Positions 49,057 to 64,000 of a stretch of 64,000 nt of DNA are shown piece after piece (the stretch's first letter is position 1; every line of letters begins with the position of its first letter). The notes below the pieces were generated by a model. That model was given only the letters and a program-made list of their open reading frames with translations. It was not told where the DNA came from and did no database searches. The stretch comes from Pseudobdellovibrio sp. (lineage in GTDB: Bacteria; Bdellovibrionota; Bdellovibrionia; Bdellovibrionales; Bdellovibrionaceae). The DNA lies in contig JAMPXC010000011.1 in NCBI GenBank assembly GCA_023701385.1, positions 1-64,000 of the forward strand, in the 5' to 3' direction. The position numbers were made by a program, and so were the translations under genes.

Positions 49057-49368
49057 TTGTTTTATACCCAGCCGCTTGTGGCCAACACCCCTAAACAGGC
49101 CCTACCTGTAATTCCTGTTGGCCAAAGAGTGAAATTGCAACTGCTTCCCAGTCCCGAAAATGAGTTCAATGGGTTTGTAAAATTTGAAATTTCGGTTTCT
49201 GGTACTTACGTGATCGCCACTGATGCTTACGTTTTGAATTTAATGAGCCTCGCCAATTCTTTTGGAGTTCTTGCGCCGCAAAAGTGCAATCTTAAATTTT
49301 TTAATTCGGCGTTTAAATTAAAAAGCCAGGCACTACCCGGCTTTTTTAGCTTTTTGGAATTTCGATAA
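49057..49368 (+). pseudogene. Possible remnant of a small exported beta-domain gene
   Basis: Open frame beginning TTG immediately behind an in-frame stop. A good AAGGAG at 49027-49032 lies too far upstream. The middle (NEFNGFVKFEISVSGTYVIATDAYV) looks like a small beta-sandwich protein family with KFE-type strands, and a later APQKC fits its C..LRK pattern. The 3' end runs into the tadA terminator and stop. Looks like a degenerate gene, but a real short protein is not excluded. Confidence 0.3.
49320..49347 (-). terminator. Intrinsic terminator overlapping the CpaF stop codon
   Basis: AAAAAGCC ... GGCTTTTTT with inner AGG/CCC pairing. The stem contains the stop codon TAG at 49333-49335. Palindromic, so it could also act for the plus strand. 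Confidence 0.8.
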
Positions 49369-50472
49369 CGGGAAGTTAATCTTGTTATCGATAACTTCTT
49401 GATAGAACGACGGCACGTTGCCTGTAGGCTCGATACCACCAATTAACTTACCATCTGGTGCACGTGTTAAATTTTGAATTTCAAAAATAGGTACAACGAT
49501 ATATTTACCTTCTTCATCAATACCGCGCACTTCAGAAATAGCCCCGATTTTACGAGAACCATCTGAGTAACGAGAAATCTGAACGATAATTTCAATCGCT
49601 GAAGCCACTTGTGATGTTAAAGCTTTTTCTGAAAGCTTCGCATCACCGCTGGCCGCTAAGGCTTCAAGACGGATAATTGCATCTTCAGGCGAGTTCGCAT
49701 GCACCGTACCCATTGAACCTTTGTGACCCGTATTCATGGCATTAATTAATTCTAAGGCTTCGCTTGAACGAACCTCACCCACGATAATACGGTCTGGACG
49801 AAGACGTAGAGCTGATTTTAATAAATCTTTAATCGTTACTTCACCTTTACCCATAAGATCGGCTTGGCGAGTTTCAAAACGCACAACGTGTTCGTATTCA
49901 ACCTGTAACTCGGATGAATCTTCGATGATTAATACGCGTTGGCCTGCTGGAATACGTGAACACATGAGTGATAACAATGTGGTTTTACCTGAACCAGTAC
50001 CACCGCTCACCACGATGTTTTTACCTAAGAACATGCACAGATCAATAAACTGCCAGGCATCAGGACTGATTGTTCCGTATTTGATATAATCATTCGGCGT
50101 GATTTTCGACGCCGTGAATTTACGAATAGAAATAACCGTTCCCTGACGAGAGATCGGTGGCAGAACCGCGGCAATACGCGATCCACTGGCTGGAGAACCT
50201 TCAATAATTGGAAGACGTGCATCTAGGCGTGGTTCTTCTTTATTGATACGACGGCCAACCGATTGCGCGATCGAATTGATCGCAGCTTGTAAATTATCTT
50301 CATCCGGAAACTTAGCCGGAGTTAATTCTAATTTACCTTTTCTTTCGACGAAAATTTGATTGGGTCCATTGATAAGAACTTCTGAAACTCCTGGATCAGC
50401 TAAATACTCTTCAACGGGTCCTAAAGCCCGTTGAATTACTTCTTTAAAATTTGAGTTATCGTCAGAAGCCAT
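49333..50472 (-). CDS. cpaF: CpaF/TadA-type secretion ATPase (orphan)
   Basis: 379 aa. Hexameric type II/IV secretion ATPase that powers Tad pilus assembly. Walker A GGTGSGKTTLLS, Asp box LIIEDSSELQ, Walker B RIIVGEVRSSEALELINAMNTGHKGSMGTVHANS (cited by motif only). N-terminal all-alpha domain is short. No cpaB-E, tadB/C or pilin genes lie next to it here, so the pilus genes must be elsewhere or the ATPase is orphaned. Confidence 0.88.
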   Translation of the reverse strand: MASDDNSNFKEVIQRALGPVEEYLADPGVSEVLINGPNQIFVERKGKLELTPAKFPDEDNLQAAINSIAQSVGRRINKEEPRLDARLPIIEGSPASGSRIAAVLPPISRQGTVISIRKFTASKITPNDYIKYGTISPDAWQFIDLCMFLGKNIVVSGGTGSGKTTLLSLMCSRIPAGQRVLIIEDSSELQVEYEHVVRFETRQADLMGKGEVTIKDLLKSALRLRPDRIIVGEVRSSEALELINAMNTGHKGSMGTVHANSPEDAIIRLEALAASGDAKLSEKALTSQVASAIEIIVQISRYSDGSRKIGAISEVRGIDEEGKYIVVPIFEIQNLTRAPDGKLIGGIEPTGNVPSFYQEVIDNKINFPLSKFQKAKKAG

Positions 50473-53862: not shown

Positions 53863-53910
53863 AAAAAAGGCCTGGCACCCATTTATAAAAAAAGGCCTGG
53901 CACCCATTTA
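53863..53910. repeat. Tandem 23-bp repeat at the cyclase stop codon
   Basis: Two copies of AAAAAAGGCCTGGCACCC (plus ATTTA) in direct order at 53863-53885 and 53887-53910. The second covers the stop codon of the adenylate cyclase. On the minus strand each is GGGTGCCAGGCC followed by six or seven T, which could help terminate transcription from the cyclase side although no hairpin forms. Confidence 0.7.
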
Positions 53911-55701
53911 ACTTAAAACTTTATATAATCTTAGTGGAAGTGTTTTACCTTTCACTTCGATGTCACCAGCTAAATCAAACTTAAATGGTGATTCAGTTTG
54001 TGCAACCGCCACTGAACCATCTGCTGTCACTTCTTGTGTTGTGACCGGTTGTGATAAACGGTTAAAGACTTCATCGCTGACTAATAAATCTACTTCAAAG
54101 TGCTTCGTTGAAGATTCGATACGCGAAGTCACGTTCACGGTATCACCGATCACGGTAAATTCCATACGTTCTTCTGAACCGATCGTTCCTGAAATCGCAG
54201 CACCAGCATGTAAGCCCATACCGATTTGAATTTCTGTTAAGCCACGTTCACGGCGTGAAGCATTTAAAGTAAATAAAGCTGAACGCATTTCTAAACACGC
54301 TTTTAAAGCGTTTTCTGTATCACGGTCGCTGCCTGCTGGTACGCCCCACACAGCCATGATCGCATCACCGATAAATTTATCTACGACGCCACCATGACGG
54401 TTAATGATTCCCACCATCACAGCGAAGTATTCATTTAACATCGATACAACTTCTTCTGGCGTATGACCTTCTGAGAATTTTGTAAAACCACGAATATCTG
54501 AGAAGAAAACGGTTACTTCTTTTCGCGTCCCGCCAACGCTGACTTCTTGTTGTAATAAGTTTTCGGTTACGCTTGATCCGTGGAACTTATTAAATAAGTT
54601 TTTCACTTTATCACGCTCTTTTAAACCTTCGGTCATGTGGTCAAAGGCCGCCGCCAAGTCACCCACTTCATCATGAGATTTAACTTTTTTACGGGCTGAA
54701 ATATTGAAATTTCCTTTAGGAATTTCTTTGATTAATTCAGCCAAGACCTCGATCGGTTTACTTAATGTTAATGAGAATAAGAATACCGCAAACAGTGCAA
54801 AACTTAGTACGATACCTGAAATAAAGATCGCTTTGCGTTGTACCTCTTGCGCTGGTTCGTTCACAATACTTAACGGAGTTTGTGCAAGTAACACTGTTCC
54901 CCAGAAGCTACTTTTTACGAAGGCACCGATATAGGCTTTGCCTTTTTCGTTTTTAAACGTTAATTGTTTTGAATTTGTAGCATCAGCTAGAGCTTTTTGA
55001 ACGAAGTTTTCGCCTTTGATATTCTTACCTTGGCGAAGTAATTCTTCATTTTGATGCGCTAATAAAAAACCATTACGGTCAATGAGGAAGAATTCACGTT
55101 CACTGTCATTGGAAAATAGACTTTGGATCATTTCAGAGTTAAATGCTGCGATCACGAATGTATTTACCTGGTTTTGCGCATCACGGCTGTACGGAAAGCC
55201 AATTGAAACCACGCGAACACTTGGGTTTACTTCAGCAAATTGCAGTTCAATATTTTTTTGCATAACCGACGAGATCGGAAATGGTTTTTTCTGACGAACC
55301 TGATCAACGAAGTCTGGCGTTAGTTTATTTTTAATTAAGAAGTCTTCTTGAACTTTTTTAACATAAAGCTGCGGTTTACCGTCGACAACTTGATAGATCT
55401 CAATACCCACTAAGTTTTTATCTTTAGGTAATTTGTATTGACCAAGGCCTTCAAAAGTTTCTTTTAATAAAATTTGTGACAAGTTTCTGGCTTTATCTAA
55501 TGAACCGTCTAAAATCGTTTCAACCTGTTTTCCGCGCAGTGAAGCCTCGGTAAAGTTCGAAAACTCTTCCCGTTGGGTCATAACCTTTCTGAAGAACTCA
55601 GAACTTTGTTTGGTGACCAAAACCATCGCGGTTAAGATAATGAAAGTCGTTACACCAATGATTTTAGCTGAAATCGGAATTCGCATATTTTTCAGTTTCA
55701 T
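53908..55701 (-). CDS. Membrane class III adenylate cyclase (HAMP)
   Basis: 597 aa. N-terminal TM (about residues 11-30), extracytoplasmic sensor domain with a PAS/Cache-like fold (about 31-285), second TM (about 290-312), HAMP linker, then the catalytic domain. VTVFFSDIRGFTKFSEG and VDKFIGDAIMAVWG carry the two metal Asp; the Lys before FIGD and the Thr in EFTVIGDTVN indicate ATP specificity, NVTSRIE the transition-state residues. It makes cAMP in response to an envelope signal. Overlaps the upstream barrel gene stop by four bases. Confidence 0.92.
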   Translation of the reverse strand: MKLKNMRIPISAKIIGVTTFIILTAMVLVTKQSSEFFRKVMTQREEFSNFTEASLRGKQVETILDGSLDKARNLSQILLKETFEGLGQYKLPKDKNLVGIEIYQVVDGKPQLYVKKVQEDFLIKNKLTPDFVDQVRQKKPFPISSVMQKNIELQFAEVNPSVRVVSIGFPYSRDAQNQVNTFVIAAFNSEMIQSLFSNDSEREFFLIDRNGFLLAHQNEELLRQGKNIKGENFVQKALADATNSKQLTFKNEKGKAYIGAFVKSSFWGTVLLAQTPLSIVNEPAQEVQRKAIFISGIVLSFALFAVFLFSLTLSKPIEVLAELIKEIPKGNFNISARKKVKSHDEVGDLAAAFDHMTEGLKERDKVKNLFNKFHGSSVTENLLQQEVSVGGTRKEVTVFFSDIRGFTKFSEGHTPEEVVSMLNEYFAVMVGIINRHGGVVDKFIGDAIMAVWGVPAGSDRDTENALKACLEMRSALFTLNASRRERGLTEIQIGMGLHAGAAISGTIGSEERMEFTVIGDTVNVTSRIESSTKHFEVDLLVSDEVFNRLSQPVTTQEVTADGSVAVAQTESPFKFDLAGDIEVKGKTLPLRLYKVLS

Positions 55702-59235: not shown

Positions 59236-59263
59236 TAAACATTTAGACCTTTTATCCCGATGA
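59236..59263 (+). promoter_or_regulatory. FliA-like promoter candidate before first fibre gene
   Basis: TAAACATT-N12-CCCGATGA. The same element with the same spacing, TAAACATT-N12-TCCGATAA, precedes the second fibre gene at 62453-62480. The -10-like box overlaps the first ATG, so the transcript would start near the second ATG (59272). Confidence 0.45.
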
Positions 59264-61818
59264 ATGTATTGATGATTTCACGTTTCAGGACCGCTTATTT
59301 TGCAAAACAATTTGCGACAGTTTTTCTGTCGTTATTACTCTGTCAACCAGCGTGGTCGCAATCTACACAAAATCAGATGATGTCATTTGAAGGTACACTG
59401 ACTGATACGGGCGGAAACGCCGTCGATCTACAGGGCCAACAGCTTTATTTTTATATTACAGCGAACGATTCATTCGGAAAAAAATGTGTGCTTTTTGCGG
59501 AGACGTCTTCAAGTGCTGGCTCTGCTGACGGAAGTATTTTACATCAGTTCGGAAATGGTTCTGCCGTTACCTCTCCGGTTTCTTATAACAACATTCTTTC
59601 AGCTTCGGTTTTCAGCGGTATTGCTAACGGTAAGTTAGCGGATGGCACTGGCACGGCCTGCTCGGTTGCCGTTAATGCCACCCGCTTTGCCGATGTTTAT
59701 TCAATGCTTTTAAATGTCACAGCAACTGTCACTCTTGGTTCTGTGCCCTACTCTCAATATGCAGCGAATGCCGCCTTACTCAATGGAAAATCAGATGCTG
59801 ATTTTCTTTTAGCTTCAAGTGTCAGTGGCGGTACCATAGGCCAAGTGTTAAGTCGCAGTGGATCTGGTTTTTCTTGGGTGAATTTACCGGCGGCCGCAGG
59901 TGGAGTTTCTTCAATTGATTTAGGTTCTGCCTCAGCTACGGGAATTTTAGCTTCGGCGCGTTTGCCATCTTACACTGGCGATGTTTTTTCAGCTTCCGGT
60001 TCGACAACAATGACCGTGACCCGTCTTCAAGGAACTTTACTTTCTTTGGTGGCACCCGTCTCGGGCCAAGCTTTAGTTTTTAACGGCACTTCATGGATAC
60101 CGACAAGTGTTCCTACGCCACTTATTCCCGCTTTAAATTTAAGTGATGTCGCAAGCGCGGGCGTAGCCCGAGCTAATTTAGGTTTAGGAGCTTTAGCTAC
60201 GCAAAATTCAGTGAATCTTTCAACGCAAGCTACAGGCATGTTACAGGAGTTTAATCTTCCAGCCTTTAATGGCGACATTGTTTCGAATGCTGGTGATGAC
60301 ACCCTGAAAGTTGTGGCTATTCAAAACAAACCGGTAGCTGCAACATCTCCGGCTTCGGGACAAATTATGAGTTACAACGGAAGCCAATGGGCGCCAACTA
60401 CCGCAAACTTCGTTCGCAGTGGTGGTGATGTTCTTTCTGGTTTTTATACTGTCGATGGTGGGTTAAACGTTGTTTCAACAACAGCAACAAATGCTGATGT
60501 AATTCCGTTATTTGCAATTCGTCGTCAAACATCAAATGCAGGTAATGGCGCCGATAACTTTGGATCGATGTTTTTATTTGATGCTGAAAATGCATCAGGA
60601 ACTATGGTTAACCAAGCCGGTATTATTTCGCGCTGGATAGCCGCTTCAGGTGAACAAAGCCAACTCGAATTTCAAACAAAATCTAACCCGGGCAATATGG
60701 CCACACGCATGACGATTACCGGAACTGGTAAGGTAGGTATCGGTACAAATTCACCGAATGCAATGCTTGATGTACAAGGTACAATTAAGCTTGGAACAAA
60801 TGGCGCAGCCACAAGCTGTAGTGGAATTGAGCTAGGCGTGCTTCGTTATAACAACAATAATAATCATCTGGAAACGTGCAATGGAACCATCTGGCACCCT
60901 GTGGGGTTTTGGACAAAAGATGGAAATAACGGTCTTTACAACACTTCAAACATTGCGATCGGTACATCAATTCCAGATCCATCGTACCGTTTATTAATTG
61001 AATCAACGGCAAGTCATTTAGCTTATTTAAGACAAGATAGTACAAATCATGACGGCTTATTAATTGAAACCAATGGTAATAATCCGGGTAATTTCGGCCT
61101 TTCGGTCAATGGAATAAATGGCGTAAACTTCATCGTTAAAAATGACCGTCGTGTCGGTGTGAACGTATTTTTACCACAAGCTAACTTTCATGTTTCAGGT
61201 ACTACAATTCTTGGCGGCAATACGGGAGTAGATGGAAGTATCGCCGTGAGTGGTGTGATCCAGTTACGAAGCCCTGCTGCTTTACCGATTGGGTGCACAA
61301 CAGCTGAAGAAGGCGCGCAACGTTACAATAATGTTGTGAAAGCCATGGAATATTGTAACGGTACAAGATGGCTGGGCGTAAATGGTCTTACCTCTTGTGA
61401 TTCAGGTTATACGATGGTTGGCACTGCTGGTACGCCTTCGGCATTTTGCATGAGTACAAATGTTAATACCCCGCAAACAGTGACCAATGCCAGCAATATG
61501 TGTCGTAACGCCGTAATTAGTACAGGTACGAAAGCCCGCTTGTGTACGACTGTGCAGCTAGATTTAGCCTGCGAAAATTATAATAACGTTACTCCAACTT
61601 TTATAAATTTAAACAATAGTATTTACCACTGGACTTCAAACTCTATCCCGGTCGGTGGCACGTCGAACTATCCGAAAAATATTTATGTTTCTTATTCTTC
61701 AAGCAATGGATCGACTTGCCATATAGAACCTAATACCGGTGCTGCACCTTACAATGGCCGTGTTACTGACGCCGATTACATTAACAATTCCAAAAACTAT
61801 CGCTGCTGTTATGAATAG
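59260..61818 (+). CDS. Tail-fibre-like surface adhesin (MAT-type), 852 aa
   Basis: Signal peptide (to about AWSQSTQNQ). N-terminal head with SFEGTLTDTGGN. Then repeated fibre units of the form LPxxxGDVxSxxGxxTxxV and GQxLxYNGxxWxP. A tail-fibre shaft motif (KVGIGTNSPNAMLDVQGTIKLG) near the middle. The C-terminal ~110 residues are Cys-rich (SCDSGY, AFCMS, NMCRNA, RLCTT, ACEN, CHIE, RCCYE), probably a disulfide-stabilised tip domain. This matches the layout of the trimeric phage-tail-like fibres (MAT proteins) that Bdellovibrio uses to recognise prey. The first ATG is 59260; ATG 59272 is a possible alternative given the promoter candidate. Confidence 0.82.
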   Translation: MNVLMISRFRTAYFAKQFATVFLSLLLCQPAWSQSTQNQMMSFEGTLTDTGGNAVDLQGQQLYFYITANDSFGKKCVLFAETSSSAGSADGSILHQFGNGSAVTSPVSYNNILSASVFSGIANGKLADGTGTACSVAVNATRFADVYSMLLNVTATVTLGSVPYSQYAANAALLNGKSDADFLLASSVSGGTIGQVLSRSGSGFSWVNLPAAAGGVSSIDLGSASATGILASARLPSYTGDVFSASGSTTMTVTRLQGTLLSLVAPVSGQALVFNGTSWIPTSVPTPLIPALNLSDVASAGVARANLGLGALATQNSVNLSTQATGMLQEFNLPAFNGDIVSNAGDDTLKVVAIQNKPVAATSPASGQIMSYNGSQWAPTTANFVRSGGDVLSGFYTVDGGLNVVSTTATNADVIPLFAIRRQTSNAGNGADNFGSMFLFDAENASGTMVNQAGIISRWIAASGEQSQLEFQTKSNPGNMATRMTITGTGKVGIGTNSPNAMLDVQGTIKLGTNGAATSCSGIELGVLRYNNNNNHLETCNGTIWHPVGFWTKDGNNGLYNTSNIAIGTSIPDPSYRLLIESTASHLAYLRQDSTNHDGLLIETNGNNPGNFGLSVNGINGVNFIVKNDRRVGVNVFLPQANFHVSGTTILGGNTGVDGSIAVSGVIQLRSPAALPIGCTTAEEGAQRYNNVVKAMEYCNGTRWLGVNGLTSCDSGYTMVGTAGTPSAFCMSTNVNTPQTVTNASNMCRNAVISTGTKARLCTTVQLDLACENYNNVTPTFINLNNSIYHWTSNSIPVGGTSNYPKNIYVSYSSSNGSTCHIEPNTGAAPYNGRVTDADYINNSKNYRCCYE

Positions 61819-61825
61819 GTAAAAT

Positions 61826-62407
61826 ATGAATTATTTAAAGTTAACTAACGTTTTATTCTTTACAAGTTTACTCAGTTTGATGTCATGTCAACCCGGAGCC
61901 CCTGTTGTGACCGTGCTTGGTGAAGTGGGTGGTTTTGAAATCAGCGAAAGCACACAAATTCTAAAAAGCAAAACCAGCAAATCGATTTTTTATATTTCTG
62001 GAAAATGTCAGGGTTCAATTAAAGATATTCACGTAAGTTTTGATAGTGGGTCAAACTACACGCCATTAAGCCAATTTGCTGAAAGCTATACGCTGGATTG
62101 CAGTGGCTCTGGAACTTATTCTTATAAAATTAATCCAAACAACACAGTCGCCTTTGATATTCCGGTAGAGGCTTCATACCGCGATTTTAAATTACGTGGA
62201 ATCAGTGATTTCGGCAACACGCTTGTGTTAAATCTTCGTCGTATGGTGACTAATAGTAGTGATTTACAAATTACCGCCGGAAGTGTTGCCGCCAATGCCA
62301 CAACGGCTTCGGGCACACCTGTCATTTTACGTGCGCGCGTTATATCTTCAGCCGGCACAACAACTGGACCAGGCTTTAAATTTAAAGGTGCTATTCGTAT
62401 CAAATAA
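61826..62407 (+). CDS. Lipoprotein between the two fibre genes, 193 aa
   Basis: Lipobox LSLMSC-QPG at residue 21. Rest is an all-beta, Ser/Gly/Thr-rich domain resembling the Fn3/Ig fold, with two Cys in CQGSIKDIHV and DCSGSG. Lies 7 bases after the first fibre gene, likely co-transcribed. It may serve as an OM anchor or chaperone for the fibre (inference). Confidence 0.7.
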   Translation: MNYLKLTNVLFFTSLLSLMSCQPGAPVVTVLGEVGGFEISESTQILKSKTSKSIFYISGKCQGSIKDIHVSFDSGSNYTPLSQFAESYTLDCSGSGTYSYKINPNNTVAFDIPVEASYRDFKLRGISDFGNTLVLNLRRMVTNSSDLQITAGSVAANATTASGTPVILRARVISSAGTTTGPGFKFKGAIRIK

Positions 62408-62452
62408 GAGCGACGTTCTCTCATTCTGAAACAAAAAACTCCACCAAACTGT

Positions 62453-62480
62453 TAAACATTTATTCGGGTAAATCCGATAA
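62453..62480 (+). promoter_or_regulatory. FliA-like promoter candidate before second fibre gene
   Basis: GTTAAACATTTATTCGGGTA then AATCCGATAA: TAAACATT-N12-TCCGATAA. It shares 11 of 13 bases of the upstream box with the first fibre gene (TGTTAAACATTTA). Distance to the ATG (62508) is about 28 bases. Confidence 0.5.
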
Positions 62481-62507
62481 ATACTATGAATGAATCTAAG
62501 TACGGGG

Positions 62508-64000
62508 ATGACTAATTTTACTAAGAAATTCACAGCGATAGCTTTGTCTTTGCTATTATGTCAGCCTACGTTTGCACAATCTTCTGAAAACCAGCAAATG
62601 GCCTTTGAAGGAAATTTAACCGATACCAGCGGTAATCCTATCAACTTAAGCAATGTGGCTTTAACTTTTTATGTTTCAGCTAACGGCTGTTATCTTTACA
62701 ACGAATGGTCTGCGGCCGCAGGTGATAATCAGGGAAACATCTCTCATCGCATAGGAAATGGCACTCTCGCAGCGGGTTCTCCAAATTCTTTTTCGCAAAA
62801 CTTATTTTTTGGAAACGTAAGCGGTAAATCTATTGCGACTGATAGTCCTTGCTCGGTAACAGCAGCAGATACACGCCTCGTGCAAGTGTTCTACCCCACC
62901 GAAAGTATCACGGCGACTATTAAACTTGGCACTGTACCTTACGCGCAAAATGCAACAATGCTTTCTGGAAAATCTGTAACTGATTTCGTTCAGGTCAGTG
63001 CTGATACGAACACGATTTTTTATGGCGGTGCTGCCGGACAATACTTAACAAAGTCAGCTTCTGGTTTAACTTGGTCAACAAACACTTTAACTTCTGCGCA
63101 AATTTCCAGTGCTTTAGGTTACACTCCGGTAAACAGCGCGACGTTAGGTACGCTAGCTACGAAAAATAGTGTGAGTCTTTCCAGTGTTGATGTCACAGGT
63201 ACGCTATCGGTTACCCACTTGCCAAGTTTTTCAGGCGACGTCTCAACAGCCGCTGGCTCATCGACTATGACGATTCAAAGTTTTAGAGGTGTGCCATTAG
63301 CAGCTACAGCGCCAGTATCTGGACAAGTTCTTTTATATAATGGTTCTACTTGGTCTCCGACAACAATTCCTGCAAACATTGGAACTGTCACAAATGTTTC
63401 TGCAGGAACAGGTTTACTGGGTGGATCAATTACTTCATCAGGAACTCTTTCGGTAAATTTTGGTGCATCAGCTGGAACAGTGGCCGCAGGTAATGATTCG
63501 CGCATTGTCGGTGCTTTGCAGGGTGTGAATAATTTAAGTGAGATCACCTCAGCAACGATGGCTCGTAATAACTTGGGCTTAGGAAATTTAGCTACAAAAT
63601 CAATCGTCACTTTAAATAGTGCTGATGTAACTGGTATTTTACCGATGGCTAACGGCGGATCGAAATGGAGTCTAGGTGCTGGTGGAATTTACACAGTTAG
63701 CAACACAACCATCGGCTCTTCGACGACTTTTTCGAATACCGCATTATATGTGGCTGCTCCGATCAGTGCTTCTTCAACTGTAGCCGCTTCGATTAATAAT
63801 CCGAACGCCAACGGCTACGGATTAAAAATTAATACCGAAAATGCCAATGGTTCTTATTACGGTTTAAGAGTTTCAGCTTTTGATTCAACTAGTTTTATCG
63901 TCCTTAATAATGGCAATGTGGGTGCGGGTGTACCAACCCCAACAGCACGCTTACATATTGGAGCTGGTGGCACGTCGTTACCTGGTTTAAAATTAACAAG
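62508..64000 (+). CDS. Second tail-fibre-like surface adhesin (MAT-type), partial
   Basis: Runs off the right edge; 497 codons present. It begins ATG 62508 (an in-frame stop lies just upstream). Signal peptide (to about PTFAQSSENQ), then SFEGNLTDTSGN-like head, closely matching the first fibre gene (QQMAFEGNLTDTSGNPINL). Fibre repeats of the form LPSFSGDVSTAAGSSTMTI and GQVLLYNGSTWSP follow, then GGSITSSGTLSV. Near the end it has the tail-fibre shaft pattern NGNVGAGVPTPTARLHIG. The Cys-rich tip is not yet reached. Paralogue of 59260, so a tandem-duplicated adhesin locus. Confidence 0.82.
   Translation, partial: MTNFTKKFTAIALSLLLCQPTFAQSSENQQMAFEGNLTDTSGNPINLSNVALTFYVSANGCYLYNEWSAAAGDNQGNISHRIGNGTLAAGSPNSFSQNLFFGNVSGKSIATDSPCSVTAADTRLVQVFYPTESITATIKLGTVPYAQNATMLSGKSVTDFVQVSADTNTIFYGGAAGQYLTKSASGLTWSTNTLTSAQISSALGYTPVNSATLGTLATKNSVSLSSVDVTGTLSVTHLPSFSGDVSTAAGSSTMTIQSFRGVPLAATAPVSGQVLLYNGSTWSPTTIPANIGTVTNVSAGTGLLGGSITSSGTLSVNFGASAGTVAAGNDSRIVGALQGVNNLSEITSATMARNNLGLGNLATKSIVTLNSADVTGILPMANGGSKWSLGAGGIYTVSNTTIGSSTTFSNTALYVAAPISASSTVAASINNPNANGYGLKINTENANGSYYGLRVSAFDSTSFIVLNNGNVGAGVPTPTARLHIGAGGTSLPGLKLT

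Follow-up and report, generated by a model that had tools for sequence, protein, structure and literature searches.

Organization of the locus

The stretch of DNA analysed here (the window) covers positions 1 to 64,000 of a contig of 79,163 bases (C20) in a Pseudobdellovibrio sp. genome of 3.18 Mb in 96 contigs, and towards its end it carries a cluster of adjacent paralogous genes for exported fibre proteins in the order fibre 1, lipoprotein, fibre 2 and fibre 3 (fib1 to fib3). The fibres resemble the mosaic adhesive trimers (MATs) of Bdellovibrio bacteriovorus, and each fibre gene follows a box of the FliA (sigma28) type. The first gene, fib1 (59272..61818, plus strand), encodes a signal peptide, a MAT-type head, a shaft and a Cys-rich C-terminal tip (61297..61815, plus strand). 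As a sequence-only reading of the window had stated, a lipoprotein gene (61826..62407, plus strand; 193 amino acids (aa), lipobox LMSC) begins 7 nucleotides (nt) behind the fib1 stop codon, and the two are probably cotranscribed. It is followed by fib2 (62490..65624, plus strand, within the window up to position 64000), which encodes 1044 aa with the same sequence of MAT-type head, shaft and Cys-rich tip. That reading had described a pair of fibre genes; their paralogy is borne out (36.7 % identity over 392 aa of head and shaft, 3.8e-58), but the pair is in fact a trio, as fib3 (65696..67906, corresponding to L003:8697-10907; 736 aa) lies 71 bp after fib2 and past the window end.

MAT-type fibre proteins

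The MATs of B. bacteriovorus were defined as proteins in which a conserved domain of approximately 130 aa succeeds the signal peptide and leads into a fibre shaft with a variable tip; 13 of them carry S74 and 8 lack it. They are displayed on this predator and have been connected with its entry into prey (Caulton et al. 2024, PMC10769870). In all three local fibres, the signal peptide precedes a conserved head of about 150 aa that is approximately 50 % identical among them in the head alignment. The shaft-type sequence shows VGIGTxxP repeats. Between fib2 and fib3, identity amounts to 56 % over 493 aa. Among the solved MAT structures, fib3 matches Bd2133 (8OND, E=1.3e-6) and Bd3182 (8OJN, E=1.8e-4) and fib1 weakly matches 8OJN (E=0.029), while the sequence search with fib2 returned none of them. 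A profile built from the three heads detected six additional heads, diverged in sequence, within this genome and matched 18 of 40 related genomes, including a syntenic trio in the same-genus genome G013; homologous heads also occur in contigs labelled Bdellovibrio sp. Pfam gave no match above cut-off for fibres, tips or lipoprotein, and the SDxxxK motif of S74 is absent from all six proteins (the three local fibres and their three G013 orthologues), which therefore fall into the non-S74 class.

These sequence relationships support the placement of the three fibres in the MAT superfamily, from which trimerization, surface display and binding of a ligand may be predicted. Accordingly, the description of tail-fibre-like MAT proteins in the sequence-only reading holds with respect to the fibre type, given the 8OND and 8OJN matches and the heads in relatives, whereas their role in prey recognition is presumptive. 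Besides the signal peptide, the N-terminal domain and the repetitive shaft, the local proteins have in common with the B. bacteriovorus MATs (PMC10769870) that C-terminal tips are exchanged and that several paralogues exist per genome. The locus differs in that three genes stand in tandem, each with a FliA-type box of its own, in the intervening lipoprotein gene, and in the Cys-rich tip.

This tip, already noted in the sequence-only reading, is real: 10 of the 15 Cys residues of fib1 fall within residues 679-850, following the pattern C..G..FC..A..C..RLCT..Q..AC....RCC. A feature not mentioned there is that fib2 ends in a tip of the same type, with 34 % identity between the two over about 200 aa. 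Sequence searches of Pfam and the PDB gave no match to the tip; the spacing of RLCT..Q..AC....RCC is suggestive of C-type lectin or FGE-like domains. A domain of that kind would have a counterpart in the lectin tip described for the MAT Bd2740 (PMC10769870).

Further MAT-type genes were encountered in the same genome. On contig C44 (L041/L070), the group of fliA and a fleN-type ATPase gene is followed by a gene for a 147-aa exported protein and then by a MAT-type fibre gene with a GTG start. A second MAT-like fibre group, characterized by TTYQAKI.KPDG, is represented by L238, L250, L251, L252 and L258 (contigs C17, C63, C69, C69 and C79, respectively), in which most genes start with GTG 6-7 nt downstream of a FliA-like box; L251 and L252 are separated by about 11 kb on one contig, and L245 and L258 have an identical promoter sequence.

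Mosaicism in a congener

In G013, the corresponding order is fib1, lipoprotein, fib2, an RCC1-repeat protein gene (L069:10684-11910, absent from the window genome) and fib3. The fib1 orthologues retain the head (61 % identity) and the tip (57 %), while the shaft in between is unrelated; in fib2, head and shaft are kept and the tip is unrelated, that is, swapped; and in fib3, head and tip are kept with shaft units repeated, resulting in 1878 as compared to 736 aa. Judged from these alignments, such chimerism, with heads kept and tips exchanged, matches the behaviour for which the MAT family was named.

The surroundings of the cluster are cellular. Its upstream neighbour is a gene for a FecR-domain protein on the opposite strand, and the trio is followed downstream by sfsA, by a gene whose product is small and exported, and by a gene resembling that for arginyl-tRNA synthetase (argS); the FecR-domain gene, sfsA and argS are found in conserved order in G013. 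Elsewhere in the window, a gene for a CpaF/TadA-type secretion ATPase (49333-50472, minus strand) was noted, as well as one for a dCache-HAMP-adenylate/guanylate cyclase receptor (53908-55701, minus strand) that adjoins genes for FecR-domain and outer-membrane-protein-like products.

FliA-type promoters

The boxes preceding fib1 (59236..59263, plus strand; TTAAA-N17-CCGATGA) and fib2 (62453..62480, plus strand; TTAAA-N17-CCGATAA) were located where the sequence-only reading had placed them, and the pattern TAAACATT-N12-YCCGATRA is exclusive to these two sites in the 3.18-Mb genome (reversed control 0). An equivalent position before fib3 is occupied by TTAAC-N16-CCGATAT, with a spacer one nucleotide shorter. 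The G013 orthologues carry TTAAACATT..CCGATGA (fib1), TTCAACCTT..CCGATAA (fib2) and CTAAACTT..CCGATAT (fib3), so that across paralogues and orthologues the box elements are retained while the letters of the spacer have diverged. The boxes score 10-11 of 11 positions at spacings of 16-17.

Background counts were obtained from 1.6 Mb of G013 with 1457 open reading frames (ORFs), upstream of which TAA[AGC]-N-CCGAT[AG] peaks solely at spacings of 16 (9 sites) and 17 (15 sites), with a mean of 2.7 elsewhere. P values assume independence of genes, which is untrue for paralogues and orthologues; the enrichment tables offer more reliable evidence. The window genome itself encodes FliA in a single gene (TIGR02479, 274 bits against a cut-off of 189.6) adjoining a fleN-type ATPase gene, and its genes with a box and a nearby start include fliL and those for a T2SSE/CpaF-type ATPase, a PilZ protein, a subtilase and lipoproteins, together with at least eight MAT-type fibre genes, among them the three local ones. 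The likeness to FliA boxes asserted by the sequence-only reading is thus supported by the genus-wide spacing peak, the encoded FliA, and the boxes on fliL and the T2SSE/CpaF-type gene; on this evidence, the boxes belong to a genuine promoter class of the FliA type, from which FliA-dependent transcription of the fibre genes would be expected.

For B. bacteriovorus, the attack-phase consensus TTAAG-N16-CCGATA has been mapped and assigned to FliA (Karunker et al. 2013, PMC3627812), which acts as global master regulator of the attack phase in Bdellovibrio (PMC3627812, PMC5430801). Furthermore, TAD-operon and flagellin promoters from B. bacteriovorus and B. exovorus were shown in Escherichia coli to be under FliA control, and B. 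bacteriovorus did not permit deletion of fliA (PMC5430801). The window genus shares with this regulon the TTAA-N-CCGATA elements, the cognate FliA, and members encoding surface proteins and T2SSE/CpaF-type proteins, but differs in a spacer that is mostly one base longer (N17 being its commonest spacing, as in the first two boxes) and in a start codon that usually follows the -10 element by 6-9 nt.

For the suggestion in the sequence-only reading that the genes could be motility-linked, attack-phase-linked is the better term, as FliA is a global attack-phase regulator in Bdellovibrio. Its other suggestion, that they could be phase-linked, was rejected insofar as it refers to phase variation: tandem repeats, an invertible segment and nearby inverted repeats were not found at the locus, and the inverted matches detected were just two, weak and long-range (2.8-5 kb apart).

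Start-codon geometry

If the first box is a promoter, the start of fib1 at 59260 given by the sequence-only reading, which opens the longest ORF (852 aa), is unlikely to be the true one because this ATG would lie inside the -10 element; the ATG at 59272, which follows the -10 box by 8 nt, yields 848 aa. Likewise, the start of fib2 moves from 62508 to 62490. In all six fibre genes (three local, three in G013), an in-frame ATG or GTG follows CCGATRN by 7-9 nt, and no Shine-Dalgarno sequence is visible before any of these starts. The same geometry is enriched beyond the fibres, with 44 of the 1457 ORFs of G013 having a box (at least 9 of 11 positions) and a start at 6-9 nt, as compared to 7-17 (mean 10) in five other 4-nt offset bins. 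Among 61 family genomes, TTAA-N17/18-CCGAT-N8-10-RTG occurs 679 times versus 205 for the reversed pattern (396 versus 196 when the start is shifted by four bases); in the window genome alone, the counts are 20 versus 3 and, with the shifted start, 4 versus 2.

Sigma28 promoters usually initiate transcription about 6-9 nt behind the -10 element. A start codon at 6-9 nt would therefore lie near the usual initiation point, and the fibre mRNAs are predicted to be leaderless or nearly so. Leaderless mRNAs of the FliA class are not described in the literature searched. In a toolbox study, expression rose in three out of the four cases tested when the native upstream sequence that comes with FliA-type promoters was exchanged for an optimized ribosome-binding site, which is compatible with a leaderless reading without proving it.

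A lipoprotein linked to MAT genes

The lipoprotein encoded between fib1 and fib2 is 67 % identical to its counterpart in the equivalent place in G013, and distant homologues were detected in 18 of the 61 family genomes. In 11 of these 18 and in two contigs labelled Bdellovibrio sp. (L202 and L203), the homologue lies immediately before a MAT gene, which it overlaps by 4 nt in most cases; the MAT head is of the same kind as in the window and reads TYEGVLTD..GTPI (in L196, TYEGQIIKPDSNPLE). With this linkage in 13 loci, the pairing spans genera. A FliA-like box (at least 9 of 11 positions) is situated 5-11 nt before the lipoprotein start in 13 of 13 such loci. Profile matches of the lipoprotein in the PDB were weak, mostly to a short sialidase stretch, and were not used.

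According to the structural study, the surface partner to which the invariant MAT head binds has yet to be identified, and no lipoprotein partner for MATs is mentioned there (PMC10769870). A partnership of this kind looks undescribed in the literature searched. Most likely, the lipoprotein would anchor MAT heads in the outer membrane or assist in their assembly.

Two additional observations concern the lipoprotein homologues. A recurrent element similar to GTCTCRTTYTRA lies just upstream of the -35 box of the lipoprotein gene in the Bdellovibrio-type loci L185, L186, L191 and L197 and is perhaps an activator site. In L188, L192, L195 and L198, long proteins of about 1290-1516 aa begin with the lipoprotein domain; in L188 and L195, CCGATAG stands before the ATG.

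Proposed function and alternatives

The explanation that we regard as probable is a cluster of non-S74 MAT-type fibres with FliA attack-phase promoters and near-leaderless starts, in which the lipoprotein is a dedicated partner. In such a scenario, FliA would be active in free-swimming cells, each fibre gene would be transcribed within the attack-phase programme from a promoter of its own, and translation would begin at a start codon located at or a few nucleotides from the mRNA 5' end. After export via their signal peptides, the fibres would be retained on the cell surface through the conserved N-terminal head, with the co-encoded lipoprotein acting as outer-membrane anchor or assembly factor, while a trimeric, β-structured shaft would project the variable C-terminal tip to bind the surface chemistry of a prey cell or of a different surface. 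Recombination would exchange tips and shaft lengths among paralogues. Recognition of prey is the role that we infer for the fibres.

Several points weigh against this explanation. The gene order is fibre then lipoprotein in the window and lipoprotein then fibre in Bdellovibrio; most of the sampled same-genus genomes have neither the trio heads nor the lipoprotein; and, as partly paralogous copies, the three local boxes do not count as independent. The AlphaFold2 models of the lipoprotein (predicted local distance difference test score 35) and, from a single sequence, of the tip (38) were unusable, so that trimeric fibre, tip fold and lipoprotein fold stay putative. Finally, promoter use and expression are predicted here from DNA, and a predatory habit of the window species is presumptive.

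The same fibres and FliA promoters could also belong to general attachment or biofilm adhesins, the lipoprotein being merely a co-regulated surface protein. We consider this rather unlikely: the FliA-class genes of the window genome do include unrelated envelope proteins, and the link of the local fibres to prey or a ligand is drawn by homology, but that homology is to MATs tied to prey entry in B. bacteriovorus (PMC10769870), and the lipoprotein is associated specifically with MAT genes rather than placed at random. More improbable still, the boxes might be relics of duplication or chance occurrences, with another sigma factor transcribing the genes from further upstream and with ordinary leaders. 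The first two boxes indeed lie within a 40-nt upstream repeat of 73 % identity and exceed the B. bacteriovorus consensus by one base; against this stand the retention of the box over a diverged spacer in paralogues and orthologues, the genus-wide spacing peak and start-codon geometry, the occurrence of the box on fliL and the T2SSE/CpaF-type gene, and the lack of visible Shine-Dalgarno sequences at the six starts. A remnant of a prophage tail-fibre module was rejected as extremely improbable, since the match of fib3 to the phage-tail profile phrog_1197 (1.2e-8) is as expected of fibre shafts, while the proteins have signal peptides, the cellular flanks are conserved in G013, and no related locus was present in the viral contigs scanned. 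Compared with phage tail fibres such as the T5 L-shaped fibre and S74 tailspikes, the local proteins are alike in shaft-type sequence and in the weak phage-tail profile matches of fib3, but they are exported cellular proteins that lack SDxxxK and a phage neighbourhood.

Implications for attack-phase biology

The adhesin family and the type of regulon are already known; the predicted leaderless FliA transcripts and the MAT-linked lipoprotein are additions that appear unreported in the literature searched. MAT fibres are the best candidates for prey recognition by Bdellovibrio-type predators, and their anchoring and timing were previously open. The cluster described here, with its predicted attack-phase promoters, connects MATs of several genera with the attack-phase sigma factor at the level of sequence, and the lipoprotein represents a specific, testable candidate for the anchor or assembly partner. 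Leaderless translation of attack-phase genes is likewise indicated, and 5'-end maps exist for B. bacteriovorus HD100. We tentatively put forward, as a possibility that we would hesitate to call likely on both counts at once, that the FliA regulon of the Bdellovibrionaceae is largely leaderless and that the MAT-linked lipoprotein is the surface element holding the invariant MAT head. If true, entry into the attack phase would employ a distinct mode of translation initiation besides a sigma factor.

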